Shown here: positions 2,550 to 23,323 of the stretch, piece after piece
Position numbering within the stretch: the first letter of the stretch is position 1
Layout: each line of letters begins with the position of its first letter
Assembly: GCA_903885795.1 (NCBI GenBank)
Contig: CAISJV010000078.1
Coordinates: 1-64,000 of the forward strand
Length of the DNA stretch: 64,000 nucleotides
Direction of reading: 5' to 3'
Origin: an uncultured delta proteobacterium
Lineage (GTDB): Bacteria > Desulfobacterota > Syntrophia > Syntrophales > UBA8958
Position numbers and translations under genes: made by a program
Notes under the pieces: generated by a model
Seen by the model: only the letters and a program-made list of their open reading frames with translations
Database searches by the model: none
What the model was told of the DNA's origin: nothing

Positions 2550-2551
2550 AG

Positions 2552-4087: not shown

Positions 4088-4104
4088 ATGATTATCATAA
4101 ATTT

Positions 4105-4984: not shown

Positions 4985-4990
4985 CGAAAA

Positions 4991-6391: not shown

Positions 6392-6468
6392 TCACAAGTC
6401 ATCTTTAAACATGCAGCGAATTAAAGTGGCACATATTATTACAATTTCTGAATTAAAGTCCATGATTT

Positions 6469-6506
6469 GGGGGGGGGTCAGGTCTTGCATTAGCGTTTTG
6501 CATGGG
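6469..6506 (+). repeat. Array repeat unit A, copy 8
   Basis: Full copy with an expanded G tract (nine G in 6469-6477), followed by TCAGGTCTTGCATTAGCG and TTTTGCATGGG. It separates the AAA-DUF4143 gene from the AbiEii module. The variable G-run length between copies suggests slippage. Confidence 0.9.
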
Positions 6507-6551
6507 AAAGAGATCATGATTCGTGGGGCCAGCTTAAAGAACGGCCCTCCT

Positions 6552-7446: not shown

Positions 7447-7458
7447 ATCCCAGCATAT

Positions 7459-7498
7459 GGGAGTCAGGTCTTGCATTTTAGCGTTTTGCATGGGGTGG
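7459..7498 (+). repeat. Array repeat unit A, copy 9
   Basis: Full copy with 2 extra bases between the blocks (GCATTTTAGCG) and one mismatch in block 1 (GGGAGTCAGG). Its right end directly abuts the stop codon of the ORF6N gene (7499-7501), and its left part lies inside the open frame of the AbiEii-associated gene. Confidence 0.9.
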
Positions 7499-8044: not shown

Positions 8045-8067
8045 ATCAGCTCATCCTTCTTAAACTT

Positions 8068-8106
8068 GGGGCTCAGGTATTGTTTATTAGCGTTTTGTAT
8101 GGGGCG
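8068..8106 (+). repeat. Array repeat unit A, copy 10
   Basis: Diverged full copy (GGGGCTCAGGTATTGTTTAT, TAGCGTTTTGTATGGGG). It lies between the DUF433/DUF5615 pair and the ORF6N gene. With copies 6a and 11 it shares TTTATTAGC in place of CATTAGC, so it belongs to a distinct sub-variant. Confidence 0.85.
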
Positions 8107-8113
8107 GAGACCA

Positions 8114-8470
8114 TTATTTTTCGGAAGATCGAATACGGACACCCATTGGTGTGATCACCGTAAAGGCTTGTGCTAACTCCTGACTATGCTTACTAATAAC
8201 AGAGGTCACGATTGCAGCTTTCTTAGCGGGAGTCAATCCTGCTAATCTAATGAGAACAACACCTGCCGAAATACGCCGCAGACGAAACACTAAATATCCA
8301 AAGTCTTTATCCGATGTTAATAATAGAGCCCCCTCTTTATTGGCCAATACAAGTACGATATCATCGGAAATACCCGGCGCCATTTCAGCAATGTAGCTGA
8401 CGGAATATCCTTCTTCACGAAGACGATCAACAATTTGTTTGTCGACGCCTTCATCCGCGAGAAGGTTCAT
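8114..8470 (-). CDS. DUF5615 PIN-like protein (probable toxin)
   Basis: 118-residue DUF5615 protein, a Mut7-C/PIN-like fold. Acidic residues DE near the start (MNLLADEGVD), a second Asp cluster at SDDIVL and DKDFG near residue 69-73 (TSDKDFGYLVF) form the expected metal site. Family knowledge suggests a nuclease toxin paired with DUF433. It overlaps the DUF433 gene by 4 bp (ATGA), so the two are cotranslated. Sequence looks complete. Confidence 0.85.
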   Translation of the reverse strand: MNLLADEGVDKQIVDRLREEGYSVSYIAEMAPGISDDIVLVLANKEGALLLTSDKDFGYLVFRLRRISAGVVLIRLAGLTPAKKAAIVTSVISKHSQELAQAFTVITPMGVRIRSSEK

Positions 8471-8700
8471 GCCGCTGCCTCGGCAGGATAAACAACATCA
8501 CCACGTAAAACTCCCGTGGTATATATCAGTGCAGCCTGAATTCCTTCGCGTGTGAGGCGTGGGTGGGATTCGAGTATTTGTTCTATAGATTCACCGGCAG
8601 CAAGTTTTTCCAGAATAAGCTCAACAGTTATTCGTGATCCGGCAATAACAGGCTTGCCCATCATAATAGTCGGGTCTGAAATAATCATATTCGTTTGCAT
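8467..8700 (-). CDS. DUF433 antitoxin
   Basis: 77-residue DUF433 protein (IMMGKPVIAGSRITVELILE, LAAGESIEQILESHPRLTRE, GIQAALIY), a helix-turn-helix-type fold usually encoded just before a DUF5615 or PIN toxin. It is thought to bind its own promoter and neutralise the toxin. The pair forms a two-gene operon with repeat copy 11 starting about 20 bp upstream. The predicted start ATG at 8700 follows a weak GAGAGG-like site. Confidence 0.85.
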   Translation of the reverse strand: MQTNMIISDPTIMMGKPVIAGSRITVELILEKLAAGESIEQILESHPRLTREGIQAALIYTTGVLRGDVVYPAEAAA

Positions 8701-8722
8701 TTTTACCTCTCTTTCGGGTCTC

Positions 8723-8766
8723 TTTTGGGGGTCAGGTCTTGTTTATTAGCGTTTTGCCTGGGAGGA
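8723..8766 (+). repeat. Array repeat unit A, copy 11
   Basis: Full copy of the TTTATTAGC sub-variant (GGGGGTCAGGTCTTG, TTTATTAGCGTTTTGCC). On the minus strand it provides the stop codon (TAA, 8746-8748) of a small ORF to its right. Confidence 0.9.
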
Positions 8767-8880
8767 TTTTGTTGTTTCCTTCCCCTGCTTGAAACAATCG
8801 GGCAGGGCGTAAATGGATTTATACGGCTCTTTGGCTATTTCCTCCTCGCTCATCTCTTTGAAACCTTCCTTCTTCAACAT
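8746..8880 (-). CDS. Small ORF, possible antitoxin remnant
   Basis: 44 codons starting MLKKEGFKEMSEEEIAKEPY, preceded by GAGG 8 nt before the ATG. The stop is inside repeat copy 11, so the native end was probably lost. Upstream in the same frame, MAKKIIKS (8925 downwards) is followed by an in-frame TAG and then EKEVIS before this ATG, which suggests an older longer gene with a nonsense mutation. I do not recognise the family. A TGTCCCC-type repeat fragment lies just upstream (8938-8957). Confidence 0.4.
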   Translation of the reverse strand: MLKKEGFKEMSEEEIAKEPYKSIYALPDCFKQGKETTKSSQAKR

Positions 8881-8952
8881 CGAGATAACCTCTTTTTCCT
8901 ACGATTTTATTATCTTTTTTGCCATTTTAGGTACTAATCAAGCTGTCCCCAA

Positions 8953-9414
8953 TTAATTTTTTCCAAAACTATTCAAAAAGGTATCTACATCGGTTTGGTA
9001 GATACTTCTCAAGGAGGCGGCATCCTCCAGAACGATCTTCAACTTCCTTTCGTCCAACTCGTATGAATAGGCATGTCTGAATAAATGCCTGAATGATCTG
9101 AGATTGTCGAGCAGGAGAAAGCATTCCTGAGACAGGAGACGAGGCCTTATTCCCTCTATGGAAATAGCCATCCTCTTAAGGAGTTCCAGATGATATTTGC
9201 TCTTGTCCTGTATATGGTTTTCGAATGTTTCCGCGACAATCTTGAACAGGTCTTCAAAAGCGCAATAGAGATTGTGCAACTGATACCCCACGCTCTCCAT
9301 TGCTGCCTTATCATTCTTTCGTTTTCGATCTTCAATCCTTGTATAGATGCCCTCTATCCCCTGTGTCTGGGCTTTTATCTCAGCGTGCAGAACAGCTAAT
9401 CTTTCCTTATCCAC
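8953..9414 (-). CDS. HepT-like HEPN protein
   Basis: 153-residue all-helical protein. The motif RSFRHLFRHAYSYELD (about residues 108-123) fits the R(x)4-6H RNase signature of HEPN domains, and YQLHNLYCAFEDLFKIVAET (about 44-63) is the typical preceding helix. It is the HEPN partner of the MNT gene that overlaps it by 19 bp, a pair of the HepT/MntA kind in which the nucleotidyltransferase modifies and silences the HEPN RNase. It is the only MNT/HEPN pair in the window with both members intact. Confidence 0.78.
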   Translation of the reverse strand: MDKERLAVLHAEIKAQTQGIEGIYTRIEDRKRKNDKAAMESVGYQLHNLYCAFEDLFKIVAETFENHIQDKSKYHLELLKRMAISIEGIRPRLLSQECFLLLDNLRSFRHLFRHAYSYELDERKLKIVLEDAASLRSIYQTDVDTFLNSFGKN

Positions 9415-9770
9415 CGGATGCCCCCTCTCTTGATCTTGTCCGCCAATCGGTGATCTTCCAGTTGAACGATATCCACGTCGCGACCCGCCTCTTCCGAGAT
9501 AAGAGACATCACCTTAAAAAAGTGCCTGTCATCCAGTCCGACAAAGCCGATATCGATGTCCGATCTTTCCGAAAATCTGAAAGGCTTTATTACAGAGCCA
9601 AACAGATATGCCTCTTCAAAGTCAATCTTTTCGCTTAACTCGCCAATGACCGCCAAGATTTTCTCTATCAACAAAAGCCGGAGCTCCTCCTGCTTTTTTC
9701 TTTTCTTTTCGACGACTTCATCAAGCAGTGTCGTTTTAAATATGCTAAATTCAGGGGTCAGGTCTTGCAT
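9396..9770 (-). CDS. MNT-type nucleotidyltransferase starting in the repeat
   Basis: 124 residues with AYLFGSVIKPFRFSERSDID (GS...SDID motif, about residues 53-72) and a second Asp region DVDIVQLED near 98. It is the probable AMPylating antitoxin for the HepT-like neighbour. The only ATG upstream of the motif is inside repeat copy 12, giving the N-terminus MQDLTPEFS; no GTG or TTG alternative exists between them. So the repeat seems to supply the translation start, although no Shine-Dalgarno is visible. Alternatively the true start was lost with an upstream segment. Confidence 0.72.
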   Translation of the reverse strand: MQDLTPEFSIFKTTLLDEVVEKKRKKQEELRLLLIEKILAVIGELSEKIDFEEAYLFGSVIKPFRFSERSDIDIGFVGLDDRHFFKVMSLISEEAGRDVDIVQLEDHRLADKIKRGGIRWIRKD

Positions 9771-9790
9771 TAGCGTTTTGCAAAGCTCTC
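9754..9790 (+). repeat. Array repeat, copy 12, A/B hybrid
   Basis: Right-most copy: unit A through TTAGCGTTTTGC, then GCAAAGCTCTC as found at the end of unit B instead of the usual ATGGGG. This hybrid end indicates recombination between the two repeat units. No copy is seen to the right of this position in the window. Confidence 0.85.
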
Positions 9791-10162
9791 AACGTTTTTC
9801 AGCGGGCGAAAATTCATAGGGGCACTGTCCCTCAATAAATACAGCTCCGCTCCCTCGGTTACAGAAGCATCCCGAGTGGTGGGGACGGGCATGTTTAAAA
9901 AAGTTGCTTAACATGATTAACATTATGAGAACATCGTAGATGAATACGGCATATATGGAAATAGTGCAATACCTTTTTGCTCGATAGTCTGTTATTATTC
10001 TTAATCCTTTCCCCGATCCATGATTAAGATGTTTGTCCCATTTTAACAGGTTTTCCCCCTATGGAAAATAAACCGGAAGGGTGATATGATTTTGCCCAAA
10101 GGCTTATTCCGGGCCTTCAGTAAGACCTTGAAATATTTTTAGTTTGCATCGGCAAAATCCTG
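9791..10162. other. Intergenic region left of the GspE gene
   Basis: About 370 bp without a supportable gene. Near its left end, GGGGCACTGTCCCTC is a short imperfect palindrome of dispersed-repeat type. The right part should hold the promoter of the gspE operon, but I cannot single out convincing -35/-10 boxes. Confidence 0.5.
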
Positions 10163-11710
10163 ATGGCTGAAAGGCGTAATCATAACATGAGCCAGGCTGT
10201 GGCTACTTTCAACATGGAAGAGCTTACCAAGGTTCCTCTCGTTCTGGACAGATTATCTTCCAGATTTATCCGTGAAAACCGGATAATCCCCCTGGAGATG
10301 AGAAATAATATCCTTGATATAATCATGGCGGACCCGACCGACCGGGAAGTAATCGACGCCCTCGGGGTTGCCCTGAGCGCCGATATTCAGGTCTATTCAG
10401 GCGATGGAAAGTTGATCGACGATTACATTGCCCGTTACTACGGCCAGGAAACCCAGGAAATCAACAAACTCATAGAAAACATCGACGACAAAGGATTCGA
10501 GTATACAGCCGAAGAGGGTGAGGATATCGGCCATCTCAAGGATCTGGCATCGGAAGCGCCCATCATCAAACTGGTGAACCTGATCATCGCCCGGGCCATA
10601 GAGAGCAGGGCAAGCGACATCCATGTCGAACCCTTCGATGACGAACTGATTGTTCGCTACCGTATTGACGGCGTGCTCCATAACGTCGAGACGGCGCCTA
10701 AAAAACTTCAGGCGGCCATCGTCTCCAGGATAAAGATCATGGCGAAACTGAATATTGCCGAGAGGAGACTCCCCCAGGACGGCCGCATCAGGATCAAGAT
10801 CAGCAACAAGGAAATCGATCTCCGCGTTTCAACTATTCCCGTCCTTTACGGTGAGAGTGTCGTCATGAGAATTCTCGACAAGGAAAGTATCGTGATCGAC
10901 CTTGGCCTGCTGGGTTTCCCGGATGATATCCTGGCTCAGTTTCAAAATCTCATCCAGAAACCCCATGGCATCATCCTTGTCACCGGACCTACGGGAAGCG
11001 GGAAAACCACGACCCTTTACGGCGCCCTGGACAAGATCAATTCCCCGGACAAAAAAATCATCACCGTGGAAGACCCCGTAGAATACCAGCTCAAGGGGGT
11101 CAATCAAATACAGGTCAAGCCCCAGATCGGCCTCAACTTTGCCAATACCCTGCGCCATATAATGAGGCAAGATCCCGATGTCATCATGATCGGGGAAATC
11201 CGGGACCTGGAAACCGCAGAGATGGCCGTCCAGTCGGCTCTTACTGGTCACATGGTCCTTTCGACGCTTCACACCAACGACGCCCCCAGCACCATCACGA
11301 GGCTTCTGGATCTCGGGGTCGAGAGCTTTCTTCTCTCCTCTACAATCAGGGGAATTCTGGCGCAGCGGCTCGTAAGGGTCATCTGCCCATTCTGCAAATA
11401 TAAGGACACATCGGCAATTGGCCTCAAAGATCCTGCCTCATCCGCCATTGATGCAGAAGCGGATATTTACCGGGGCAAGGGATGCGAAAAGTGTGCTTTC
11501 ACCGGCTACCGGGGCAGATCAGGGGTCTTCGAATTCCTTGCCGTTAATGATGAGCTTCGCAGGCTGATACTCAGGAACGCCGACGCCAATGAACTCCGGC
11601 AAATGGCGAAAAAGAACGGGATGAAAACCATCCTTGAGGACGGCGCCGCAAAGGTCAGGGCGGGGATTACCACCATGAGCGAGGTATTCCGAGTCACTCA
11701 GGAGGACTAA
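10163..11710 (+). CDS. gspE: GspE/PilB-type secretion ATPase
   Basis: 515-residue hexameric ATPase that powers pseudopilus or pilus assembly at the inner membrane. An N-terminal domain (1-120) precedes the catalytic part: SDIHVEP (Asp box), Walker A GPTGSGKTT (about residue 275), Walker B region DVIMIGEIRD and the His box LSTLHTNDAP. A four-Cys zinc site is complete: CPFC near residue 411 and CEKC near 444. The next gene begins one base after the stop, so both are in one operon. A second ATG at 10187 is an equally plausible start. Family naming between GspE and PilB is uncertain; the following GspF and GspH-like genes favour type II secretion. Confidence 0.9.
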   Translation: MAERRNHNMSQAVATFNMEELTKVPLVLDRLSSRFIRENRIIPLEMRNNILDIIMADPTDREVIDALGVALSADIQVYSGDGKLIDDYIARYYGQETQEINKLIENIDDKGFEYTAEEGEDIGHLKDLASEAPIIKLVNLIIARAIESRASDIHVEPFDDELIVRYRIDGVLHNVETAPKKLQAAIVSRIKIMAKLNIAERRLPQDGRIRIKISNKEIDLRVSTIPVLYGESVVMRILDKESIVIDLGLLGFPDDILAQFQNLIQKPHGIILVTGPTGSGKTTTLYGALDKINSPDKKIITVEDPVEYQLKGVNQIQVKPQIGLNFANTLRHIMRQDPDVIMIGEIRDLETAEMAVQSALTGHMVLSTLHTNDAPSTITRLLDLGVESFLLSSTIRGILAQRLVRVICPFCKYKDTSAIGLKDPASSAIDAEADIYRGKGCEKCAFTGYRGRSGVFEFLAVNDELRRLILRNADANELRQMAKKNGMKTILEDGAAKVRAGITTMSEVFRVTQED

Positions 11711-12907: not shown

Positions 12908-12953
12908 TAAAAGCGTGCGTAACAACCATGATTGACAGCAATCACAACAAATC

Positions 12954-13008
12954 ATGAAAATCCCCCCATCCCCCCTTTATCAAAAGGGGGGTAAGAGGGG
13001 ATTTTCAT
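12954..13008. repeat. Long GC/AT hairpin between gspF and gspH
   Basis: Nested inverted repeats: an outer 12-bp perfect stem (12954-12965 with 12997-13008, ATGAAAATCCCC) and an inner 9-bp stem (12970-12978 with 12983-12991, CCCCCCTTT) around a 4-nt loop. No T-run follows, so it is more likely a dispersed palindrome or an mRNA-processing structure than a terminator. A related hairpin is at 42226-42246. Confidence 0.8.
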
Positions 13009-13034
13009 ATAGCGGCAGGTGCAGGACATAAAAA

Positions 13035-13585: not shown

Positions 13586-14236
13586 ATGAAAATCAAAGTT
13601 CTCCTTGCCGACGATCATAAGATTTTCAGGGATGGCCTGCGAACCCTTATCGAAAAAGAAGGGATGGAAGTTGTGGGCGAAGCGGAAAATGGCAGAAAAG
13701 CAATCAAACTGGCGGAAAAGCTGCTGCCGAACGTGATTGTTATGGATGTCAGCATGCCGGATATGAACGGGATCGAGGCTACCAGAAAAATCAAGGCGGG
13801 CATGCCCGATGTAAAGGTTATTGCCCTTTCCATGCACTCGGACCGGCGGTTTGTCCTTGGCATGCTGGAAGCCGGGGCTTCGGGATACCTTCTCAAGGAT
13901 TGCGCCTTTGGCGAACTTGCCACCGCGATCAATCAGGTCTCCACAGGCAACACTTATCTGAGCCCCCAAATTGCCGACGTCGTCGTGAAAGGTTATCTCA
14001 ATAAAGCCAATGATTCTTCCACCATTGGCGGCGCCGTCCTGACATCGCGGGAACGCGAGATTTTACAGTTGATCGCAGAAGGATTGACGGCAAAGGAAAT
14101 CGCCGTTCATGTTTTTCTGAGTATCAAGACGATAGAAACTCACCGTCGAAATATCATGCAGAAGCTGAATATGAAAAGTACCGCAGACCTCACAAAATAT
14201 GCCATCCGGGAAGGCCTGGTTTCTTTGGATGCCTGA
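13586..14236 (+). CDS. NarL/FixJ-family response regulator
   Basis: 216 residues: receiver domain (3-120) with acidic pair DD (9-10), phospho-acceptor Asp54 (VIVMDVSMP), conserved S/T near 82 and Lys near 104 (LLKD); then a LuxR-type helix-turn-helix (about 150-212: LTSREREILQLIAEGLTAKE, IAVHVFLSIKTIETHRRNIM). It controls transcription after phosphorylation by a histidine kinase not present in this window. It may regulate the adjacent secretion genes, but that is only positional. Confidence 0.93.
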   Translation: MKIKVLLADDHKIFRDGLRTLIEKEGMEVVGEAENGRKAIKLAEKLLPNVIVMDVSMPDMNGIEATRKIKAGMPDVKVIALSMHSDRRFVLGMLEAGASGYLLKDCAFGELATAINQVSTGNTYLSPQIADVVVKGYLNKANDSSTIGGAVLTSREREILQLIAEGLTAKEIAVHVFLSIKTIETHRRNIMQKLNMKSTADLTKYAIREGLVSLDA

Positions 14237-14308
14237 CAGGGAGCTTCTTCAAGCAGTTCATCGTCCTTGAGCTCCATAAAATATGTAAAGATACTTAAGT
14301 GGGACAGT

Positions 14309-14515
14309 ATGAACAGGTATCTGAAAATTGCATATATCGGCCTCTCTTTTATGCTGCTTTACTTTGTCTGGAGTCACCTGCCTGCTGAAGATGGGCAGGA
14401 CAAACTTATCAGCCGCTTAATGGAGCTCCGGTTTTTGGGTTTTATTGCGCTGATGCTCGTAATTTATTTCATCTTCTTTAATTTTCTGGGACGAAAAAAC
14501 AAGAAAGACGAATGA
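14309..14515 (+). CDS. Small two-helix membrane protein
   Basis: 68 residues from the ATG at 14309 (a GGGA site lies 6 nt upstream; the frame is open to 14267). Two hydrophobic segments, about residues 5-22 (LKIAYIGLSFMLLYFVWSHL) and 40-60 (FLGFIALMLVIYFIFFNFLG), are followed by a basic tail RKNKKDE. I do not recognise the family. It follows the response regulator gene by about 70 bp on the same strand. Confidence 0.6.
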   Translation: MNRYLKIAYIGLSFMLLYFVWSHLPAEDGQDKLISRLMELRFLGFIALMLVIYFIFFNFLGRKNKKDE

Positions 14516-14578
14516 ACTACCCAGCAGCAAGAAACGAAGCAATCTCCGGCGAAGATCTCGGATTTCAATCCATTATTA

Positions 14579-16579
14579 TTACCGCAGTACCAAGATGAAA
14601 TCCCCGCCTTCATCACCTGCCTCACTGATTGCCCCATATAGGGGAGTTTGATTTGTCACGCTATTATTAATCACTGCTTCTCTTAAGCTCGCAAAGAGCT
14701 TCTGGGTGTCAAGATACGGATCTTGATTCGATTTCAGTCTCTTGACTAAAAACTCTACAAAGACGCTCCTGTCAGGAACTGTTTTCATGGCGCCGCTCGT
14801 GATGGCTTTTCGGCTGGGTAGTTGATAAATCTTTTCCACGGATGTTTTGGGATTTGAAAATGCGTCACGCACCCTAAAAATACCACCGCTGAAACAAGCA
14901 TCAGCAACCAACAAGACATGTTTTGCTTTTATGGCCTTGATATAATCCCTGATGTTGCTGTTGGAAATCCAGTCAGAAGGATCATTCAGACCAGCGGCAT
15001 CCTTCGGCAACCAGAATCCCTGCTTCATGTCATCCATCCAGACTCCATGACCAGCGTAGAAAATCAACAGGTTGTCTTTTTCAGTGAGTCGCTTCCTCAA
15101 ATCCTGAAAAGTCTTATATACGGTTCTTCGATCGGGGTCCTGAAGAAACGTCACATTTTCTTTTTCAAAGGTATATTTTGTAACCAAAGTTTCCATTATT
15201 TGGCGGGCATCGGACACAGGATAGTCCAGTTTGCTGATTTCATGGCTGGTATAATCCTGCACCGCAATGAAGAGGGCATAATATTTGGCCGATTGGATTC
15301 CCGTAGAATGTAACATGACCTCAGGTTCTGCTGTTGCGATCTTTCCTGCTTCACGGTTTATAGTAAACTTTTTTATAGCTTGATTCCTGCGTACGTCAAC
15401 CGCTGTAACGACGATCTGATTCTGGCCGATCTTGAGAGGAATTTCAGCCGAGAAGCGACCATTTTCATCAACCGATGCCTCCTGATCATTAATTCTGACA
15501 TCCATAATGCCAATATTGCTTTCGGCTTTACCTATAACGTTAATATGCTTTACCTTAGCTGTGATGGAAATAGCGCGGGTTACATCCGGCGAGGTGATGA
15601 CAATCTTGGGTTCATAATTTGTATCTGCTGCAACGACCGATGGCTGAGGGAAAGTAGTTTCCGATATTGCGACGGCACTTTTCTTTCTGCCTTCGCGGGT
15701 TACAATGAATTGCCTTACCGTTTCGCTCTTGCTGATATCGATAGCTTTTACCACAATAGAATTTTGGCCGACCTTGAGCATGATCTCGGCTACGAAATTC
15801 CCCTTTTCATCAAGATCCACCTGATCACCGTTAACGAGAACATCGGATATACCGCTGTCACTCTCGGCTTTACCTGCAACAGAAATGCTTGTTCTTTTTG
15901 GATCCACGGAAACTGTACGGGTTATATCCGGAGAGGTGATCATTATTTTAGGAGGATTTTTTACAACTGGCGTTTTTGTCAACGGAGGCCTACTGGGTAT
16001 CTTTTGTAAAACAACGGAACTGTCTTTCTTATTATCTAAATCCGGGATATCCAATTTAGATTGCCTGCCATAATCTTTATTCCCAGTTGATTGATCAGCT
16101 TTAGTTACCGGGACGGAAGCATTGGCAGTTTTAATTCGCTGTTTCTGCCCATAATTTTTTTTCTGGAGGACTGAAACCGCATTGACAAATTGCTTGGCGT
16201 CTTCTTCTGATTTCCAGAATAGCATGATCATACCTCTGCCAGGCGACGCAGCATTGAGGTGAACGGCGTATTTTTGTCCAATTTTTAATATGTTAGTCTT
16301 TATCTCAACATATTGGACACTAGCGTGACGAAACTGATCATTGGCAGGATTGAACGTACCAGTGCCTGAGAATGTGATGTCAATCTCATTTTCTTTTGTG
16401 GTCATGCTTTCAATATTGTTACCATTTTCGATCAAAGACAGAGAAAGCTCTACTGCATCTCTTGCCTCGGAGGGACTCATTTGGGGGGAAACATCAGGAT
16501 TTACCGTATAGACAACAGTGCCACATCCTGTTGTAAGGAGAAGCAAAAGAACACCCATAAAAGAGAAAAATGTTTTCAT
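14579..16579 (-). CDS. Caspase-like peptidase lipoprotein with two Ig-like repeats
   Basis: 666 residues. A lipoprotein signal ends LLTTGC (Cys19), so it is anchored to a membrane. Residues about 30-145 form an uncharacterised domain; two similar beta-rich repeats (about 208-295 and 324-410; each with KI.ITSPD.TR..S, GKAES..GI.DV..N, VGQN.IVV.A.D) resemble glucodextranase-B/Ig-like modules. The C-terminal domain (about 432-666) is a caspase-like (C14) peptidase: His511 in YAGHG, Cys562 in ADACFSGG, and the DYPVSDARQI helix. It is probably an orthocaspase-type protease facing outside the cytoplasm. It is monocistronic and convergent with the upstream genes; substrate unknown. Confidence 0.88.
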   Translation of the reverse strand: MKTFFSFMGVLLLLLTTGCGTVVYTVNPDVSPQMSPSEARDAVELSLSLIENGNNIESMTTKENEIDITFSGTGTFNPANDQFRHASVQYVEIKTNILKIGQKYAVHLNAASPGRGMIMLFWKSEEDAKQFVNAVSVLQKKNYGQKQRIKTANASVPVTKADQSTGNKDYGRQSKLDIPDLDNKKDSSVVLQKIPSRPPLTKTPVVKNPPKIMITSPDITRTVSVDPKRTSISVAGKAESDSGISDVLVNGDQVDLDEKGNFVAEIMLKVGQNSIVVKAIDISKSETVRQFIVTREGRKKSAVAISETTFPQPSVVAADTNYEPKIVITSPDVTRAISITAKVKHINVIGKAESNIGIMDVRINDQEASVDENGRFSAEIPLKIGQNQIVVTAVDVRRNQAIKKFTINREAGKIATAEPEVMLHSTGIQSAKYYALFIAVQDYTSHEISKLDYPVSDARQIMETLVTKYTFEKENVTFLQDPDRRTVYKTFQDLRKRLTEKDNLLIFYAGHGVWMDDMKQGFWLPKDAAGLNDPSDWISNSNIRDYIKAIKAKHVLLVADACFSGGIFRVRDAFSNPKTSVEKIYQLPSRKAITSGAMKTVPDRSVFVEFLVKRLKSNQDPYLDTQKLFASLREAVINNSVTNQTPLYGAISEAGDEGGDFILVLR

Positions 16580-16731: not shown

Positions 16732-16758
16732 GGGGTTAACCAGACATTGGTTAACCCC
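16732..16758 (-). terminator. Duplicated tRNA terminator at island left end
   Basis: Perfect 10-bp stem GGGGTTAACC/GGTTAACCCC with a 7-nt loop; on the minus strand it is followed by TTTTCC. It lies just past the displaced tRNA-Phe 3' end and is the counterpart of the terminator at 23212-23237, so it is probably the original host terminator of the tRNA gene. Confidence 0.75.
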
Positions 16759-16814
16759 TTGATTTTCATGGTGGGCCAGGGCAGAATTGAACTGCCGACA
16801 CTCGGATTTTCAGT
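16752..16814 (-). repeat. Attachment site of the tRNA-Phe island, left
   Basis: 63 bp identical to 23231-23293, containing the 3' half of tRNA-Phe (T arm, acceptor 3' strand, CCA and part of the anticodon arm). Beyond 16814 the similarity stops within a few bases, so this is a displaced 3' end, not a whole tRNA gene. It is the distal attachment site left by site-specific integration. Confidence 0.9.
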
Positions 16815-16961
16815 ACGATTTTATCATTATTTCCCCCCTTCACAAAAAATAATTTGACATGATTAACCATATAAAATAAGGTACTTACAAGCTAAATCAC
16901 GGATTGATGAAATCGCTTGTGATCATCAATTATGACAAAAAGGGGTAGCTATAGGGTAGCA

Positions 16962-18143
16962 ATGAAAAGAGAGCGGACGAAGTATCCCGGTGTCTATGAG
17001 CGAAAATCGGACATAAGAATTCATAACGGTAGAGCAGATGTTTGCTTCGACATGGCATATAAGCGTGAGGGTAAGAAAATATGGGAAAAGGTCGGGTGGA
17101 TCAGTGAGGGCTATACGGCTAAGGTTGCTTCTGAGCTTAGGGCAAACAGGCTCAGAAGTATTCGACATGGTGACGAATTGCCGAAGGATAAACAGAAGGC
17201 TCCATACTTCAAAGAGGTTGCTAAAAAATATCTTAAATGGGCAACTCAAAACAAAACAAGAAAAGGACTTGATGATAAAATCCGGTATCGGAAACACCTT
17301 GCCCCCTCTTTTGATGACAAACGTCTTAACGATATTTCTCCCTTCGATCTTGAACGAGTAAAAAACGATATAACAAAAGAAGGATATGCTCCCGGCAGTG
17401 TCAAACATTGTCTTGTCCTATTCCGGCAGATGTTCAATAAGGCTGTCTTGTGGGGTATGTACAAAGGAGATAATCCGATCAAGGGTGTTAAGTTACCGAC
17501 TCTGCAAAATCAGCGCGAACGTTTCCTGACATATGATGAAGCCGCACTCCTCCTCAATGAGCTTAAAGTCGATCAAAGCCGGACAAAGAATCCCGGCGAC
17601 AAGAAAGACCCCCAACTTCATGATATGGCATTACTGTCTCTTCATTGTGGATTGCGGGCAGGAGAGATATTCAATCTCAAGGGCCAAGATCTCAACTTTG
17701 AAAACGGGCTCATCAATATATCTGACCCGAAGAACAAAGAGAGCCGCAAAGCGTTTATGACGGATGCGGTAAAGGAAGCCCTGTCAAAGCGTATCCCCAA
17801 ATCTCGTGATAAATTTGTCTTCAAAGATCGCAAGCATGATGGTAAAATCAATTCTATATCAACAGCATACAGAAAAGCAATCAATAGGCTTGGATTCAAC
17901 AAGGGCATTGCAGATCCTCGGCATATAGTAACGTTTCACAGCCTCCGTCATACTTTTGCTTCATGGCTTGCTTTACAGGGAGAAACATTATTGACGATCA
18001 AAGACCTCCTTGGTCATAAAACGCTTGCTATGACTATCAGATATGCTCATTTAATGCCGGAGCATAAGAGACAGGCAGCAATGAATCTTGAAAAAGCTTT
18101 TAATGACAAAAGAAGTTATTCTGCAATAAAAACAATTACATAA
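16962..18143 (+). CDS. Tyrosine-type integrase of the island
   Basis: 393-residue phage-type integrase. The catalytic set is visible: Arg in CGLRAGEI (about residue 230), HxxR in HSLRHTFASW (about 326), the LLGHKTLAMTI box and the nucleophile Tyr in RYAHL (about 360). The N-terminal region (residues 1-60) looks like an arm-binding domain and a SAM-like core-binding domain follows (about 70-165). I chose 16962 because the upstream stretch of the frame (16932-16961) consists of GGGTAGC repeats likely to be DNA sites. Position next to the left attachment site supports a role in integration and excision. Confidence 0.9.
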   Translation: MKRERTKYPGVYERKSDIRIHNGRADVCFDMAYKREGKKIWEKVGWISEGYTAKVASELRANRLRSIRHGDELPKDKQKAPYFKEVAKKYLKWATQNKTRKGLDDKIRYRKHLAPSFDDKRLNDISPFDLERVKNDITKEGYAPGSVKHCLVLFRQMFNKAVLWGMYKGDNPIKGVKLPTLQNQRERFLTYDEAALLLNELKVDQSRTKNPGDKKDPQLHDMALLSLHCGLRAGEIFNLKGQDLNFENGLINISDPKNKESRKAFMTDAVKEALSKRIPKSRDKFVFKDRKHDGKINSISTAYRKAINRLGFNKGIADPRHIVTFHSLRHTFASWLALQGETLLTIKDLLGHKTLAMTIRYAHLMPEHKRQAAMNLEKAFNDKRSYSAIKTIT

Positions 18144-18210
18144 TCGGCACTAATCATATACTCTTAACAACTATATCGAAACAACCCATCTCCTTGTCTC
18201 ATAAATATTT

Positions 18211-18273
18211 CATTTTTTTCGATTTATGCGCCATTTTTTTCGATTTGTCTGCTATAATTAATTGACAGACAAA
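18211..18273 (+). promoter_or_regulatory. Candidate regulated promoter of the replication-type gene
   Basis: Two 15-bp direct repeats CATTTTTTTCGATTT (18211-18225, 18232-18246) spaced 21 bp, then an 8-bp inverted repeat TTTGTCTG/CAGACAAA (18244-18251, 18266-18273) that flanks a consensus -10 TATAAT (18253-18258). Two-turn spacing and an operator over the -10 suggest a repressor-controlled start. Confidence 0.55.
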
Positions 18274-18287
18274 AAAGAAAGAGGGCT

Positions 18288-18341
18288 ATGAATACGACAC
18301 AGCAAGGAAAAATAACTCATATATGCAGGATAGAACATTGA
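18288..18341 (+). CDS. 17-codon leader ORF
   Basis: ATG AAT ACG ... ending CAT TGA, encoding MNTTQQGKITHICRIEH, with AGAGGG just before the ATG. It lies between the candidate promoter and the next gene (13 bp later, other frame). It could be a leader peptide or chance; no homologue is recognised. Confidence 0.3.
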   Translation: MNTTQQGKITHICRIEH

Positions 18342-18354
18342 GAGACTGATTAAA

Positions 18355-19050
18355 ATGAAAATAACTAAATTGTTACATGAAAATCCCCGTATAGAAAACA
18401 GCTTATTGGATTTTCAAGAGCGATTCATAGAAAAACATATTGAAAGTAATGTCGGCATTGTTACAGATGAGCTTGAAGAAGACACATTGAAGCATTTCAG
18501 GACAATGGCAAATACGGATTATGTCGCATTTGTGAAAAAAAAGCTGAATGATTTCATAAATGAATGCAAGATAAAACGTGAAATATGGGAAAAGACGATT
18601 TATCCCTATAACAGGACCTGGATCGTTGATGACAAACAGATAAAAAAGACCCTGAAGCGATATCCGAAACTCCTCGATATTCTAAGTTTCATCGACGGAG
18701 AGGGAAAGCCATCCGAAAAAATTGATGCTGAAGATTGGATATCATACCAAGCAGAAACAAGACTTGGGCCAGAAACAAGAAAATATTCTCACGTAATCGT
18801 CAGCAAGGATTTTTACGAGAGAGCCGAAAAGACGATCGGGATCAAACAAATCACAATGCAAAAATACCTTCAAGCCTTTTCCCGTATGGGAATCCTGAAA
18901 ATGATCGAACGCCTCAAGTCACATGAACGGGCTATGCTGTACATCGACGGATATTTTCGCAGGATCCCACCGAATGATCGATTAAAGAAAGAGCATTTCA
19001 TGAATCAAAAAGATCACCAGCAAGCCTTGAGGAATTTCAAATACCGATAA
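18355..19050 (+). CDS. Unknown island protein with a winged-helix-like C-terminus
   Basis: 231 residues, charged and helical, with no signal peptide or membrane segment. Residues about 145-200 (VSKDFYERAEKTIGIKQITM, QKYLQAFSRMGILKMI) look like a winged-helix DNA-binding unit in which GIKQITMQKYLQAFSRMGIL would be the recognition part. Similar layouts occur in phage and plasmid replication or regulatory proteins, but no family is recognised. Directly after its stop lie AT-rich iterated palindromes (19054-19127) that it might bind. Confidence 0.6.
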   Translation: MKITKLLHENPRIENSLLDFQERFIEKHIESNVGIVTDELEEDTLKHFRTMANTDYVAFVKKKLNDFINECKIKREIWEKTIYPYNRTWIVDDKQIKKTLKRYPKLLDILSFIDGEGKPSEKIDAEDWISYQAETRLGPETRKYSHVIVSKDFYERAEKTIGIKQITMQKYLQAFSRMGILKMIERLKSHERAMLYIDGYFRRIPPNDRLKKEHFMNQKDHQQALRNFKYR

Positions 19051-19053
19051 GAT

Positions 19054-19127
19054 CGATATATTGAATATATCAACTCAATATATCGATGTCGCAAAAATAA
19101 GCAAATTAACAAGGATCGATATATTGA
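19054..19127. repeat. AT-rich iterated palindromes
   Basis: The 11-bp word CGATATATTGA occurs at 19054-19064 and 19117-19127, and its reverse complement TCAATATATCG at 19075-19085, the first two forming an inverted repeat. They could be iteron or operator sites for a DNA-binding protein encoded upstream; an origin role is only a possibility. Confidence 0.6.
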
Positions 19128-19131
19128 ATAT

Positions 19132-19763
19132 TTTTCTAGTACATTGACTTTGTTACTTATAATTGATTTAGACGAGCAATGTAATAAAATATGATCGTTT
19201 ACAACGCCATATAAGCCATGCTACAGAAACATGTCTCTGTTCACTAACGTGAACTATCGACCCTATGTTTTTTCACCATGCCTTATATGCCGTTAATATG
19301 AAATCCACGCCGATCGTTTCGCTCCGCTCCGCTTCGCTCATCCGATCTCTGTGGATTCCATGAATAACAAGAATTAAAAATTAGCAATGTAGACATAAGC
19401 GTTTTTTACAATTATCCGTTGTCAACATTGCAGACTATTGATCGGCAACCGTTGATCCTTGCTGTTTAACAAAGTGATCAGGGTTCCGCTGCAAATGTCA
19501 TCTGTTTTGACGTGAAAGCGTGCATTCTGCCGCGGGAGAATCTCTTCTGCCGCACGATCTCGTAAGAGCTGACGAAAAGTACGTTCATCTTGATTTTACT
19601 GCTTGGTCGCAGCTTTTCCGAGATGTCTTTATTGTTGGGAGCTGCGGAGCAAAGGTCCTTCTGCCTGACTCATATATGAAGAAAAAATAATCAGGGGTGA
19701 AATCTTACTATGAAGGGTAACCCGGAAATGTAAATTTCTGTTTCAGCAACGTGATCCCTGCTC
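19132..19763. other. Long non-coding stretch of the island
   Basis: About 630 bp without a credible gene. It contains an imperfect inverted repeat around 19206-19296 (GCCATATAAGCCATG and CATGCCTTATATGCC) and a second one around 19301-19362 whose ends are AATCCAC and GTGGATT with a repetitive CGCTCCGCTCCGCTTCGCT centre. The structure may be an attC-like or REP-type palindrome or an RNA; I cannot assign it. Confidence 0.4.
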
Positions 19764-19961
19764 TTAAAACGTGCAGCTAAACTGCGAAGGATCGCTTCCT
19801 TGAACGATCATGCGAAAGTCGATAAATGGGTCGTTAATCTTGTTGGAAATGCGGGAATGCTGCTTGCCGATCAGAAAATGGTCATCAGGTAGGCATCTAT
19901 CTATCTCGACAAAAGAAATTTGATATCGAGGGTATGGACCTAACCAATGATTTTTCCCCAA
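19764..19961 (-). pseudogene. Possible transposase N-terminal remnant
   Basis: 65-codon open frame containing FVEIDRCLPDDHFLIGKQHS and ISNKINDPFIDF. The pattern (V..D..LP.DH.L..I...I.F.FI) resembles the N-terminus of IS1182-type transposases, with an insertion. It lacks the catalytic core and any other part of an insertion sequence, so at most it is a decayed fragment. Confidence 0.25.
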
Positions 19962-20129
19962 TAATCATCAACATTGATTCTTTCGGAATATAATCCTTGA
20001 CATAAAAGATTTTTTTTCTTACGCAAATACTATATTAATAAATTATTGTTAATTCAATTAAACTGATCATTTTCAAGTTTCACATAGTTCATTGTATGAG
20101 ATCAACTAATATGTGGAGGAGGCATTGAA

Positions 20130-20888
20130 ATGACGTGTATCCGCAATATTATCGTTTATTCATTATTTATCATCTGCATCTTCATATCTATTGGCTGTCA
20201 GAAAGAGTTAGTCAAAAAAGATACGGCCATGAATGAAAAAGGATGGCACGCGACGGTTGTAGGGGTCGAAGATAACGGTATTGTATACGTAATAAGCGGA
20301 GATGTGAAAGATAAAGTCGGATTGGTAAATATATATTTACCTGATGCTTCCGACCCTCAATTTGCAAAGGCAAGAAAATATCTCAAAGATAAGATGTTGG
20401 GTAAAAAAATTGTTCTAATACCAGTTTTAATTGAAGGTTCTACTTTTATGTGTCAAATTTATCTTGAATCAATATGTATAAATCAAGACATTTTAGAGGA
20501 AGGACTCGCATGGTATTATCCAAAGCACGGAAACTATGAGACGTGGTTAGATGCATTCCAAAAAGCCAGGATTGAGAGAAAAGGAATATGGTCTTTTAAT
20601 GAAGATGAAATCAAGACCCCTCTTGAATTAAGAAAGGAATACACCTCAAAAGAAAGTTTTGACAAGTTATATACATACGGAGCGAAGCTTATGCCATTTG
20701 TTATATATCACAATCCTTACAAATACTCTAGCCCCTCCACTGGATATAAATCTCAGCACAGAAGTGTCGATATGTCTGCGGCTGAGAAAGCAGACCAATA
20801 CAAGGATAGCTATATGAAAAATGGTAGAACAACAGATCTTCTTAATTACAGAATAGAGTATGAAAAAGCTATGGGGTATAGCAAATAA
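20130..20888 (+). CDS. Lipoprotein with thermonuclease (SNase)-like fold
   Basis: 252 residues. A lipoprotein signal (ICIFISIGC, Cys at about 23) precedes a staphylococcal-nuclease-like domain (about 35-150): ATVVGVEDNGIVYVISGD, VGLVNIYLPDASDPQFAKAR, then the typical GLAWYYPKHGNYETWLDAFQ and ARIERKGIWS ending. The Arg expected in the V-R-L strand and the Glu after the LPD turn appear to be replaced (VNIYLPDASD), so catalysis is doubtful. A strong GGAGGAGG site precedes the ATG. The last 100 residues are unassigned. It is an accessory island gene. Confidence 0.7.
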   Translation: MTCIRNIIVYSLFIICIFISIGCQKELVKKDTAMNEKGWHATVVGVEDNGIVYVISGDVKDKVGLVNIYLPDASDPQFAKARKYLKDKMLGKKIVLIPVLIEGSTFMCQIYLESICINQDILEEGLAWYYPKHGNYETWLDAFQKARIERKGIWSFNEDEIKTPLELRKEYTSKESFDKLYTYGAKLMPFVIYHNPYKYSSPSTGYKSQHRSVDMSAAEKADQYKDSYMKNGRTTDLLNYRIEYEKAMGYSK

Positions 20889-20921
20889 TAATATGGCCTG
20901 AGACAGATTGAGGGGAGCTGC

Positions 20922-21170
20922 CTACCTTACGATCCCCCTCATATCAGTCTTTCCAGCCGCAAGCTTTTTATAATATGTTGGGTCTCCATCCATATTCGGA
21001 TCAACCTCTTTTCGCCTGTCCCGTTCAATGAGTCGGCTATAAGCGTTTACCAGCTTGGCTACCGAGTCCAGTTTATCAGCTCCCGAACCTCCTTTCCTAT
21101 CCTTGATGTCTTCACAGACACGATTGATTGCAGCTTCGATATTCCGTATGACCTTCTTTTTTGCGTTCAT
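20922..21170 (-). CDS. Small helical island protein
   Basis: 82 residues, charged and helical: KKVIRNIEAAINRVCEDIKD, LDSVAKLVNAYSRLIERDRR. A good GGAGGG site lies in front of the ATG. The heptad-like pattern and basic start suggest a small nucleic-acid-binding or phage-type accessory protein (terminase small-subunit-like proteins have such regions), but I do not recognise the family. It is 37 bp downstream of the recombinase gene on the same strand, probably one operon. Confidence 0.6.
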   Translation of the reverse strand: MNAKKKVIRNIEAAINRVCEDIKDRKGGSGADKLDSVAKLVNAYSRLIERDRRKEVDPNMDGDPTYYKKLAAGKTDMRGIVR

Positions 21171-21207
21171 GATGATACCCTCCGTTGTTGCCCTCTGACC
21201 GTCCCTC

Positions 21208-21897
21208 TCAGTTCCAAAGCCCTCTTATCTGATCTCCAATCGTTTCATCCGTGACATCTGCATAGACAAGCGTAGATTGAATTGATGTATGCCGGAGCTG
21301 CTTTTGCACGACACGGATATCCTTTTCCTTCGAGTAAAGTTCCACAGCGTATGAATGCCGAAGAGCATGAACAGCCTTCCCACGTTCATAAAGATTAAGC
21401 TGCCTGAGGTATTTCTTCACGATTTGTTGAATCGCTTGACTTGTCCATGCTCCCCGCTGACCGACAAACAGATAATCATCATCCCCAACAGCTTCACCCT
21501 GCTTCTGTTTCCAGCCTATAAACGCTTTAAAATGCCGTTTAAGCGATTCCGTCACGACAACATGACCCGAAACATGTCCCTTGCCATCACGGATGAATAT
21601 CTTGCTTTTTGCATATCCAATTTTTAGATCACCGCACCGTAGATTCGCAGCCTCAGACACCCTAAGACCCGTTGCCGTTAGCAGATCAACAACCATCCAT
21701 TCCCGAATGCCAGTTACTTTGCCAGCATGAAAATCAAGCTCTGCTTGATCCCTTACAGTACGTCGGAGCATTTTGATCTGTTTAACATTGAAGTATTTCA
21801 CTCCATCAATGTTCTTAATCCTACTGCTTGCTTGTTTCTTTTTTGTTACCGGCTTTGCGGAAGGAAACGAAACGACTCTTGCAGATTGCTCTTTCAT
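21208..21897 (-). CDS. Second tyrosine recombinase
   Basis: 229-residue recombinase without the long N-terminal arm-binding domain. Catalytic residues are present: Arg in TATGLRVSEAANL (about 76), HxxR in HALRHSYAVEL (about 177-180), the LRHTSIQST box, and the nucleophile Tyr in TLVYADV (about 212). GGAGG lies before the ATG. It resembles XerC/D-like or phage integrases of short type. It is transcribed opposite to the first integrase; it could drive inversion, excision or resolution. Intact by sequence. Confidence 0.88.
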   Translation of the reverse strand: MKEQSARVVSFPSAKPVTKKKQASSRIKNIDGVKYFNVKQIKMLRRTVRDQAELDFHAGKVTGIREWMVVDLLTATGLRVSEAANLRCGDLKIGYAKSKIFIRDGKGHVSGHVVVTESLKRHFKAFIGWKQKQGEAVGDDDYLFVGQRGAWTSQAIQQIVKKYLRQLNLYERGKAVHALRHSYAVELYSKEKDIRVVQKQLRHTSIQSTLVYADVTDETIGDQIRGLWN

Positions 21898-22307
21898 AGT
21901 ATAATACCTCCTTTCTTTAAAAGTATTCTATTGAGTTTTTGTCCTATTTGTCAAGGATAAATGCAGGGTTTTAAGCGTCCAAGTAGTCGAAACTCAAAAG
22001 AAAATGTTAATTATGTATTGAGTTTGGGGATCATCATGAAGCGAAATGCTAAAGAGAAAACAACATATGCCCCCCCCCTCGATCTATCTCAGAAAAATAA
22101 TTTGCTTTCAACGGTAGGGTCATGACCATAAATTTTTCCCCAGAAAATCAAAACGGCTACACTCTTTCCCGAAACCTCTTCGCCGACAAATTAAAGTGGT
22201 TTAAAAATAAAAATCGTGATAAGGAATTCCCAAAATAATTTTCGGTAGTTAAAATAGTTCAATCCCTTATAAACATGCTGGAGGGACATATGGACAGGCT
22301 GATGTAA
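21898..22307. other. Intergenic island DNA
   Basis: About 410 bp without a credible gene, including the divergent upstream region of the recombinase. A short run CCCCCCCC at about 22071 and a GAGGGACATATGG near 22281 (start of a five-codon ORF) are the only notable features. Confidence 0.4.
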
Positions 22308-22337
22308 CCCCGTTTCTAAGAAGGAGCGGGGTTTTTT
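22308..22337 (+). terminator. Rho-independent terminator-like hairpin
   Basis: CCCCG (22308-22312) pairs with CGGGG (22327-22331) and is followed directly by six T. It precedes the membrane-protein gene on the same strand, so it may end a transcript from the left or act as an attenuator. Confidence 0.6.
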
Positions 22338-22408
22338 ATTGAAAATATTGGTTGAGGAATCGGAAATAGGATGAGCAAAAATGGCGTGACTTGAGCAGGA
22401 GTAAAATC

Positions 22409-23101
22409 ATGAAGAATATCCCTAATTGGCTGAAAGGATTTCTCCGCGTTTTCATCGTTATCTTTCTTATTGTTTATGTTAAAGATACGATCACTTTAAT
22501 TAATGATTGCAGAGATCAAATTAATACATGGGTGTCTCCTCAATTAAGTTTAGAAGCAGAAAGGGGCAGGGGTACTTTACACTGGTGTTCAATAATAGCA
22601 GCACCAAGATTCTTATCTGATTCGACGGAAGCAAGACTCAAAAGGGCTGAAAGTTTTTTCAGTACATGGATAGGATCAAACGTCAATGATTGTTGTATAG
22701 ATAAGGAGGCTTTGAGAGAAGGTTTTTTGTATTCGGCTACTCTCTCAATAGATGAAGCACCAATTAAAGTAAAACAATGGAGTAATGGGGGAATTAGTCA
22801 GTATCGAGATATTTCTGCAAAAGTTCAATACTCCGGAATAAAAATATCAAAGCTTATTTTCTATCCCAGCAACATAGTAAAAGCAATTTCTACATCATTC
22901 GTTAATACCGCTGCATTGATCATTGTTTATTTCTCAGTAATCTGGATTTATCGCGGGTTTAAAAAACAACCACAAGAAAAAATTGATAATAAAAATGGAT
23001 TCAAAATGAATAAAAACCTGGAGGCTGAATGTTCAGAATATGAAAAAAGTCTCCGCGATCATCGAGTAGAGAAGCACTCTGCTACAAAACAAGACTTATA
23101 A
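22409..23101 (+). CDS. Unknown membrane-anchored island protein
   Basis: 230 residues from the ATG at 22409, which has AGGAG 8 nt upstream. An N-terminal membrane segment (about 10-28, GFLRVFIVIFLIVYV) and a second (about 165-185, NTAALIIVYFSVIWIYRGF) flank a soluble domain of about 130 residues with paired Cys (DCCIDKEALR), so the middle may lie outside the cytoplasm. The C-terminal tail is highly charged. I do not recognise the family. It is the right-most gene of the island. Confidence 0.6.
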   Translation: MKNIPNWLKGFLRVFIVIFLIVYVKDTITLINDCRDQINTWVSPQLSLEAERGRGTLHWCSIIAAPRFLSDSTEARLKRAESFFSTWIGSNVNDCCIDKEALREGFLYSATLSIDEAPIKVKQWSNGGISQYRDISAKVQYSGIKISKLIFYPSNIVKAISTSFVNTAALIIVYFSVIWIYRGFKKQPQEKIDNKNGFKMNKNLEAECSEYEKSLRDHRVEKHSATKQDL

Positions 23102-23178
23102 ATAACCTCTAGATGAACTCAATAAGCAATCAAGAATGAGGATCTGGATCATTCGAGATCACTAAAAACGCTGCAATA

Positions 23179-23196
23179 GGGTAGCAATAGGGTAGC
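23179..23196. promoter_or_regulatory. Integrase arm-type sites, right end
   Basis: Two direct GGGTAGC boxes (23179-23185 and 23190-23196), 11 bp apart. The same pair with the same spacing occurs at 16943-16949 and 16954-16960 in front of the integrase gene. Helical-turn spacing and location just inside both attachment sites suggest integrase or excisionase binding. Confidence 0.55.
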
Positions 23197-23211
23197 AACG
23201 AAAACGAAAAA

Positions 23212-23237
23212 GGGGTTAACCATAATTGGCTAACCCC
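23212..23237 (-). terminator. Terminator of tRNA-Phe
   Basis: On the minus strand GGGGTTAGCC pairs with GGTTAACCCC and is followed by TTTTT. It ends the tRNA-Phe transcript and lies inside the island, so the element carries its own terminator to replace the displaced host one. Confidence 0.8.
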
Positions 23238-23293
23238 TTGATTTTCATGGTGGGCCAGGGCAGAATTGAACTGCCGACACTCGGATTTTCAGT
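23231..23293 (-). repeat. Attachment site of the tRNA-Phe island, right
   Basis: Identical in all 63 bp to 16752-16814. It covers the 3' half of the intact tRNA-Phe gene and a short 3' flank, so the integrated element restored the tRNA sequence on insertion. Confidence 0.9.
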
Positions 23294-23323
23294 CCGATGC
23301 TCTACCGACTGAGCTACCGGCCC
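23248..23323 (-). tRNA. tRNA-Phe (GAA)
   Basis: 76-nt cloverleaf on the minus strand with encoded CCA. Acceptor stem GGGCCGG pairs with CTGGCCC (one G-T), the T stem is GGCAG/CTGCC, and the anticodon loop CTGAAAA gives anticodon GAA. It is the integration target of the island to its left. Confidence 0.95.

Follow-up and report, generated by a model that had tools for sequence, protein, structure and literature searches.

We analyzed a 64,000-nt stretch of DNA from an uncultured bacterium of the order Syntrophales (contig CAISJV010000078.1, positions 1 to 64,000; hereafter the window), in which a 6.5-kb island at a tRNA-Phe gene carries an integrase gene, a gene named ORF231 and, behind the latter, a candidate origin of replication. 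Other loci and genomes are cited by L and G numbers. The island is bounded by a perfect direct repeat of 63 bp at its longest (16752-16814 and 23231-23293; spacing, 6,479 bp). The repeating unit runs from 16752 to 23230, and 23293 is the last base of the right copy; beyond the perfect core, the match extends over 92 nt at 95.7% or 97 nt at 89%. The right copy lies within an intact tRNA-Phe (GAA) gene and its terminator (tRNA at 23248-23323, minus strand, by tRNA prediction; Rfam, 73 bits), and the left copy is a displaced 3' half of that gene, comprising tRNA positions 26 to 76 from the anticodon loop onward, plus the downstream terminator. Terminator hairpins are found on the minus strand at both ends, past the displaced tRNA end (16760-16730) and adjoining the intact tRNA (23239-23210). 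Their loops differ, and the element therefore appears to have brought its own terminator, the left hairpin presumably being the original chromosomal terminator of tRNA-Phe and the right one being borne by the element. The G+C content of the island is 0.35 to 0.44 in 1-kb windows, versus 0.51 to 0.61 to the right of 23500; the left flank is also low in G+C (0.43 to 0.44 at 14000-16500).

Next to the displaced tRNA end and pointing inward lies the gene of a 403-residue tyrosine integrase (16932-18143, plus strand; PF00589, 3e-26, and alignment), several homologs of which begin at the equivalent of 16962. Direct GGGTAGCA sites are present on both sides of the core. One arm-type-like site (16943-16968, plus strand; TAGGGTAGCAA) is 92% identical over 26 nt to the right end, where a repeat search found its two partners (TAGGGTAGC at 23177 and 23188; 23177-23198, plus strand). 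The GGGTAGCA sites are placed as the arm sites of a phage-type integrase would be, which suggests that they serve as such. The initial annotation had given the exact repeat, the intact tRNA on the right, the displaced end and integrase on the left and an island-borne terminator, all of which the repeat and tRNA analyses reproduced. An intact tRNA gene and a 3' fragment in the same orientation, 2 to 200 kb apart, thus enclose a tyrosine integrase gene, as the Islander criteria have it, and the island is almost certainly a mobile integrative element.

The candidate replication initiator is encoded by ORF231 (18355-19050, plus strand). Its product had been called winged-helix-like, which its structure model bore out. 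The protein matched nothing above the curated cut-offs in Pfam or NCBIfam, had weak matches in PHROGs and none in PADLOC. Searches by tblastn found no relative among the plasmids of PLSDB (72,556 records) or the phages of INPHARED, and peptide patterns found none in genome_contigs or viral_contigs. By profile search the family occurs in 10 of 154 genomes of the order, the window's own included, with one further weak case among 395 genomes of the phylum; in this sample it lies almost wholly within Syntrophales. In L072, a member again stands behind an integrase of the same family (74% identity for the integrase, 49% over 196 residues for ORF231), and in L032 another is found near a 615-residue large serine recombinase. 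Seven members with sequence behind the gene were compared (window, L072, L028, L103, L031, L030 and L032); an eighth, L102, ends at a contig edge. Four of the seven (window, L072, L031 and L032) have a recombinase gene nearby, as does L102. The L032 element (~500-10200 on the given strand) also holds a 218-residue resolvase and a Mu-F-like head protein and adjoins a ComEC-type competence-protein gene; its ORF231 repeats read ACCACCAGTAAT. A 380-residue protein encoded beside the ORF231 gene of L028 had no ParB-type Pfam match and was not used in the argument.

The structure model of ORF231 (pLDDT 65.8, pTM 0.57) is better from residue 90 on. Its first Foldseek matches were 4pt7, titled 'Structure of initiator', and 4pql (E of 0.09 to 0.10), and realignment with VIA placed 4pql, 4pt7 and 5kbj on top (Z of 8.3, 8.2 and 7.2; next, 6.5). 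VIA likewise ranked 4pt7, 4pql, 5kbj and 4pta first for the model of the L028 protein (pLDDT 69.0; Z of 7.3, 7.2, 6.8 and 6.7; next, 6.4), in a listing that also has DnaD (2v79). Replisome-organizer and DnaD-domain proteins were returned from a viral structure library with weak E values. We take 4pql to be the same kind of plasmid RepA as 4pt7, 4pta and 5kbj. The latter three are staphylococcal plasmid RepA domains, and the RepA of the PLE satellite resembles such domains (PMC7145576). We read ORF231 as a protein that would work in a RepA-like manner and lie outside the RepA_N family.

The candidate origin directly follows the gene (19051-19400): TCGATATATTGA occurs at 19053, 19075 (inverted) and 19116, and strong hairpins come next. 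The whole gap of 1,079 bp (19051-20129) has no ORF longer than 65 residues and no known RNA according to Rfam, which gave the tRNA and weak chance matches and nothing else. Within ~200 nt behind the seven genes, in the order given above, the exact inverted arms measure 13, 9, 14, 17, 11, 15 and 16 nt and the exact direct repeats 18, 10, 15, 12, 22, 8 and 14 nt. Inverted repeats were equaled in at most 2 of 200 shuffles in six of the seven members, and direct repeats in at most 8 of 200, also in six. When 44 intergenic segments from 12 loci were taken, some of these tails included, arms of at least 12 nt were found in four, two of which are ORF231 tails. The half-site TCGATATATTGA recurs in L072, the closest relative, and with one mismatch allowed it is absent from the searched stretches of the other five members, as would follow if the protein and its sites evolve in step. 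In the 350 nt behind the gene the fold z was -6.4, -3.2, -4.8, -5.7, -3.1, -3.3 and -8.2 in the same order, with upstream coding controls at the same loci at -1.2 to +2.1. Values were also low on the other strand in all seven (-3.5 to -10.3), a pattern no less compatible with a DNA element than with an RNA. Iteron replicons have an initiator gene next to repeated sites; here repeats are present next to ORF231, and on their sequence we regard them as candidate sites. We lean toward an initiator plus origin, a module that had no place in the initial annotation and is the most informative part of the island.

Relatives of the integrase at E of 1e-60 or lower were found in 17 of 155 genomes of the order, including the window's own with three copies. 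We examined 26 integrase rows, among them four named genome contigs and the more distant L044, which amount to 25 distinct loci, the window and 24 relatives (L047 and L073 belong to a single contig). In 22 of the 26 rows, or 21 of the 25 loci, the integrase gene is preceded at 113 to 282 bp by an antiparallel tRNA 3'-half fragment; the match is just 21 nt in L078 and is cut by the contig end in L082. The best-matching tRNAs, of 31 compared, were Phe, Lys, Thr, Arg(TCT), Arg(CCG), Met, Leu and, weakly, Ala. The true target may be another tRNA in the case of L047/L073 (79%) and of L041, L050 and L081 (82 to 83%). All seven elements for which both ends and an annotated tRNA are available have the integrase gene at the displaced end, pointing inward (window, 6.5 kb; L034, 14.3 kb; L044, 9.3 kb; L048, 9.3 kb; L079, 8.4 kb; L085, 11.3 kb; L086, 6.7 kb); the L044 integrase is just 29% identical. 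Five of nine elements with two repeat copies have GGGTAGCA near both ends. The integrase had no match in viral_contigs.

We read nine sister elements of this integrase family (L034, L044, L048, L072, L073, L078, L079, L085 and L086), and as a group they look like phage satellites. L048 encodes Toprim/DUF3987, a small terminase (Terminase_4) and a phage capsid protein; L078, AAA_25 and Terminase_2; L079, a DnaG-type zinc finger with AAA_25; L086, Toprim/DUF3631; and L034, AAA_25 and a DNA methylase. A small HTH_17 protein of the AlpA/Xis type follows the integrase in L034, L072, L073 and L078 (above the Pfam cut-off), in L048 and L079 (below it) and, by eye only, in L086; none was noticed in L044 or L085. 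L034 and L073 also have a serine recombinase gene followed by a homolog of an 82-residue protein of the window (20922-21170, minus strand; 57.5% and 64% identity), which was missing from the initial annotation and for which nothing was found in viral_contigs or phages. The place of their serine recombinase is occupied in the window by a short tyrosine recombinase of 229 residues (21208-21897, minus strand; PF00589, 2.8e-24), the second of two recombinases already noted in the island. It has the catalytic domain, apparently without the usual N-terminal domain: its residues 59 and 62 onward align with residues 115 and 153 onward of 4a8e and 5hxy. The two kinds of recombinase, each paired with the 82-residue protein, may share a role in multimer resolution. 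Hidden AlpA, primase or terminase genes were sought in the island by tblastn with the ORFs (at least 55 residues) of 14 sister loci, and none was found; the search matched the integrase, ORF231, the 82-residue protein, the second recombinase, the tRNA repeat (one match of 20 residues) and, weakly, the membrane protein, and nothing else.

The initial annotation had reasoned that presence of the island at this place in all relatives would argue against recent mobility. It is absent from all five same-genus tRNA-Phe loci with an intact gene (G001, G002, G003, G006 and G007), where the tRNA gene lies by the same PrmA and RsmE genes with no second tRNA-Phe fragment in the fetched DNA (just ~390 bp downstream of the tRNA in G007). 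Presence among relatives is sporadic, a criterion added here that is not an Islander filter. The island and its near flanks were also searched as DNA in 60 genomes, the window's own included, of which 59 matched; among the matches listed, most fall on the tRNA and its surroundings or on the leader motif described below, and the island genes proper match at the integrase alone, in G013 and G052. Synteny of the right flank (HemA-CcsA-PrmA-RsmE-RDD-tRNA-Phe) holds in G001, G002, G006, G007, G032 and G037; PrmA and RsmE were found in G003, and no tRNA-Phe was found in G004. The left flank is not conserved, the DNA match to G006 reaching 14531. Because displaced tRNA-Phe fragments also occur in G037, G032 and G045 (in the last, one opposite a tRNA at a contig edge), we regard the site as a hotspot.

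The island is probably a small integrative, plasmid- or satellite-like element of Syntrophales that has an initiator-plus-origin module and lives in two states. The anatomy of the ends shows the integrated state: the 403-residue integrase joined a circular form to the tRNA-Phe gene at its anticodon-loop/3' half, so that one end now has a functional tRNA with a terminator supplied by the element, and the other has the displaced half beside the integrase gene. Excision by the integrase through the GGGTAGCA sites at both ends would release a 6.5-kb circle. ORF231 may then initiate replication of this circle from the inverted and direct repeats that directly follow its gene, to which it would bind, and the hairpins beyond them may serve for strand loading or priming. 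The small tyrosine recombinase and the 82-residue protein would resolve multimers, for which two sister islands would use a serine recombinase instead. Because the small AlpA/Xis-type gene of most sisters examined is missing here, excision may need help in trans, or this copy may be partly decayed. Since two sisters carry small-terminase genes and one of them a capsid gene, packaging by a helper phage would be the most likely route between cells, and satellite-type spread is somewhat less likely than not. We tentatively propose that ORF231 and its repeat/hairpin DNA form an undescribed, self-contained replicon of Gram-negative integrative elements, with a RepA-like family of winged-helix initiators whose sites would differ from element to element along with the protein, and which is combined both with tyrosine integrases at tRNA sites and with large serine recombinases.

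Several observations weigh against this interpretation. As to movement, no two-sided empty site was found among the relatives, because the left-flank genes are not syntenic in them. GGGTAGCA is missing at one or both ends in four of the nine elements and has stray copies elsewhere; L049, L074, L088 and L089 have no tRNA fragment, and L050 has its second repeat copy on the opposite side of the integrase gene. AlpA, primase, helicase and terminase genes are absent from the island. No recombinase gene is seen in the fetched DNA by L028, L030 or L103, and L100 and L101 are single ORF231 genes in conserved chromosomal places. As to structure, the Foldseek E value to RepA is 0.09 at best, and Z values of 7 to 8 are common for models without a clear match; the RepA rows of the L028 model are tied with unrelated ones (less than 1 Z apart), and RepA structures are not among its best 50 Foldseek rows. 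PF06970 (RepA_N) exceeds its cut-off in none of the 10 ORF231 genomes, and the ORF231 loci are not among its matches. As to the origin, the inverted repeat of L072 (29 of 200 shuffles) and the direct repeat of L030 (120 of 200) are not significant. One chromosomal homolog has a terminator-like 15-nt inverted repeat behind it, and because the two chromosomal members also score -2.6 and -5.0, fold z alone is not specific.

It is unlikely that the island is instead a decayed or streamlined int-AlpA-primase phage satellite, whose ORF231 would act as a regulator and whose structured DNA would serve for packaging or encode an RNA. The HTH_17, primase-helicase (Toprim/DUF3987, DUF3631 and AAA_25), Terminase_2/Terminase_4 and capsid genes of the same-integrase sisters speak for such a descent, and the 1,079-bp gap could be decay. 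However, the gap is ordered, with three copies of one 12-mer and strong hairpins, and it has a counterpart behind divergent homologs; the sisters' AlpA and primase genes have left no remnants in the island that tblastn could find, and ORF231 homologs lie near another recombinase type too, so the module stands alone. The idea that ORF231 is a transcriptional repressor of the element, with the repeats as its operators, draws on the closeness of the modeled winged helix to regulators of the MarR/SarX/Fur type. We find it quite unlikely, as the operators of an autoregulator would be expected upstream, whereas the repeats follow the gene and are themselves followed by ~1 kb in which no clear gene is seen; they are not at the promoter of the integrase gene or ORF231. 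It is very improbable that the island is an integrative mobilizable element conjugated from an oriT in the structured region, since, even though oriT sites are also marked by hairpins and inverted repeats, the island ORFs include no relaxase or transfer family and ORF231 was unmatched in the plasmid records.

Viewed as an integrative element with an initiator-plus-origin module, the island can be set beside known systems, as portrayed in the available parts of the published accounts. Like the tRNA islands of Islander, it has an intact tRNA at one end, a same-orientation 3' fragment at the other, a tyrosine integrase inside and a crossover in the anticodon loop, the subsite used in 2,083 of 3,919 islands (PMC4383910). 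That account, in its available part, leaves the integrase end unstated; here the integrase is at the displaced end in seven of seven. The Vibrio cholerae PLE, with its RepA_N initiator, is likewise a small integrative element; it encodes its own initiator, a winged-helix protein similar to 4PT7/5kbj, has no predicted primase or helicase activity and carries iterons in a noncoding region, as repeats with inverted sub-repeats (PMC7145576). Unlike in PLE, ORF231 is outside the RepA_N Pfam family by sequence, the integrase is a tyrosine recombinase and the repeats lie directly behind the initiator gene. The minimalist PICMI satellites share a size of ~6 kb, an integrase near one end, few genes and bounding repeats (PMC10803314); they are defined by int, alpA and primase genes next to fis, whereas the island has neither alpA nor primase and lies at tRNA-Phe. 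The AlpA-type, primase-helicase and small-terminase genes of Gram-negative PICIs and P4-like satellites (PMC6092414, PMC8628076) recur in the sisters, but the island lacks an AlpA-type regulator and a primase-replication protein. Tycheposons also have a tRNA at the border, a tyrosine recombinase and cargo; their hosts and gene sets differ, and they are set apart by description (via PMC10872708). Of the two possibilities that the initial annotation had left side by side, a site-specific integrative element with exact ends thus stands, and a phage satellite finds indirect support through the sisters' genes.

Elements of this kind are known already; what is new here is the proposed replicon, together with the consistent geometry of the family. 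No earlier description of such elements was found in the part of an open library that we covered, either in literature on mobile elements of Syntrophales and Syntrophaceae or in that on RepA_N with satellites and Deltaproteobacteria. Small islands that lack virion and transfer genes can easily pass for inert cargo, and the findings suggest that islands of this kind also exist as small circles, in the manner of plasmids. If the replicon is real, the island and its sisters would be active plasmid- or satellite-like elements in syntrophic anaerobes, and the island would join PLE as another Gram-negative integrative element whose initiator has the RepA fold. The replication and movement of gene-poor tRNA islands would then become a directly testable question.

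The remaining two island genes are read as cargo. The first encodes a lipoprotein with a staphylococcal-nuclease-type domain (20130-20888, plus strand; PF00565, 1.8e-7, 32 bits against a cut-off of 21) and an N-terminal sequence resembling a lipobox; its PDB matches include no SNase chain. The second encodes a membrane protein of 230 residues with two hydrophobic stretches (22409-23101, plus strand), for which no relative was found in 59 other genomes. Both had been recognized before as a nuclease-fold lipoprotein and a two-helix membrane protein. The stated lack of virion and transfer genes was confirmed in Pfam, PHROGs and NCBIfam, where the six island ORFs had no virion or transfer family, relaxase or type IV secretion gene. 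A defense function was considered and set aside, PADLOC giving one weak match alone, to the second recombinase.

Some further loci touch on these subjects. The chromosomal ORF231 homologs in L100 (7424-8344) and L101, from two genomes, lie near a formate/nitrite-transporter gene and have no origin-type direct repeats; they are possibly cases of domestication. In the window's own genome, a tRNA-Thr gene is followed by a stretch 75% like the right end of the island over 132 columns (L045, 9768-9980; G000:C19:100267-100479), with one GGGTAGCA site and no recognizable element, possibly the scar of a related one. The tRNA-Phe of G005 (L043, 2700-2788, on a 4-kb contig) is in two pieces with the middle gone and has no ARAGORN call, pointing to a damaged gene or an assembly fault. 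L033 (6839-12460) and L042 (7301-10764) contain short stretches of ~1.4 to 3.4 kb that each end in a tRNA-Phe 3' fragment and show no integrase gene within; they encode a DUF234 ATPase, a Gp49-type protein with an HTH protein, a Fic protein and a DUF2971 protein and are possibly cassettes moved in trans. Integrase-less stretches by the tRNA-Phe of G037 and G032 were not grouped with the island as relatives, as GGGTAGCA was not found there. The low-G+C DNA adjoining the displaced tRNA end on its outer side contains a caspase-domain gene (14579-16579) whose product has a lipobox-like N terminus. A DNA search of seven other same-genus genomes gave one 96-bp match to it (71%, in G003), and the region may be an older neighboring insertion; the tRNA-Thr island L044 also holds a caspase-domain gene. 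A short repeat at ~12943-13011 has many matches on both strands in G000, G001, G005 and G006.

A dispersed leader motif of ~93 nt (22253-22346, plus strand), also new relative to the initial annotation, precedes the membrane-protein gene and consists of an SD-pairing hairpin, the start of a short ORF and a terminator. No Rfam family reached threshold for it in the window, and we dropped the idea of a structured RNA, as covariation in pair counts was no greater than in shuffles. The motif was found in 24 of 60 genomes at E of 0.01 or lower and at 20 places in nine genomes at E below 1e-7, nine of these being the model's own seeds. Besides the window, it is present in L046 (4897-4993 and 9382-9477), L127, L129, L131, L132 and L163 to L177, often just upstream of a gene, such as those for a ThsB-TIR protein (L046), an Mrr endonuclease (L129) and membrane proteins.

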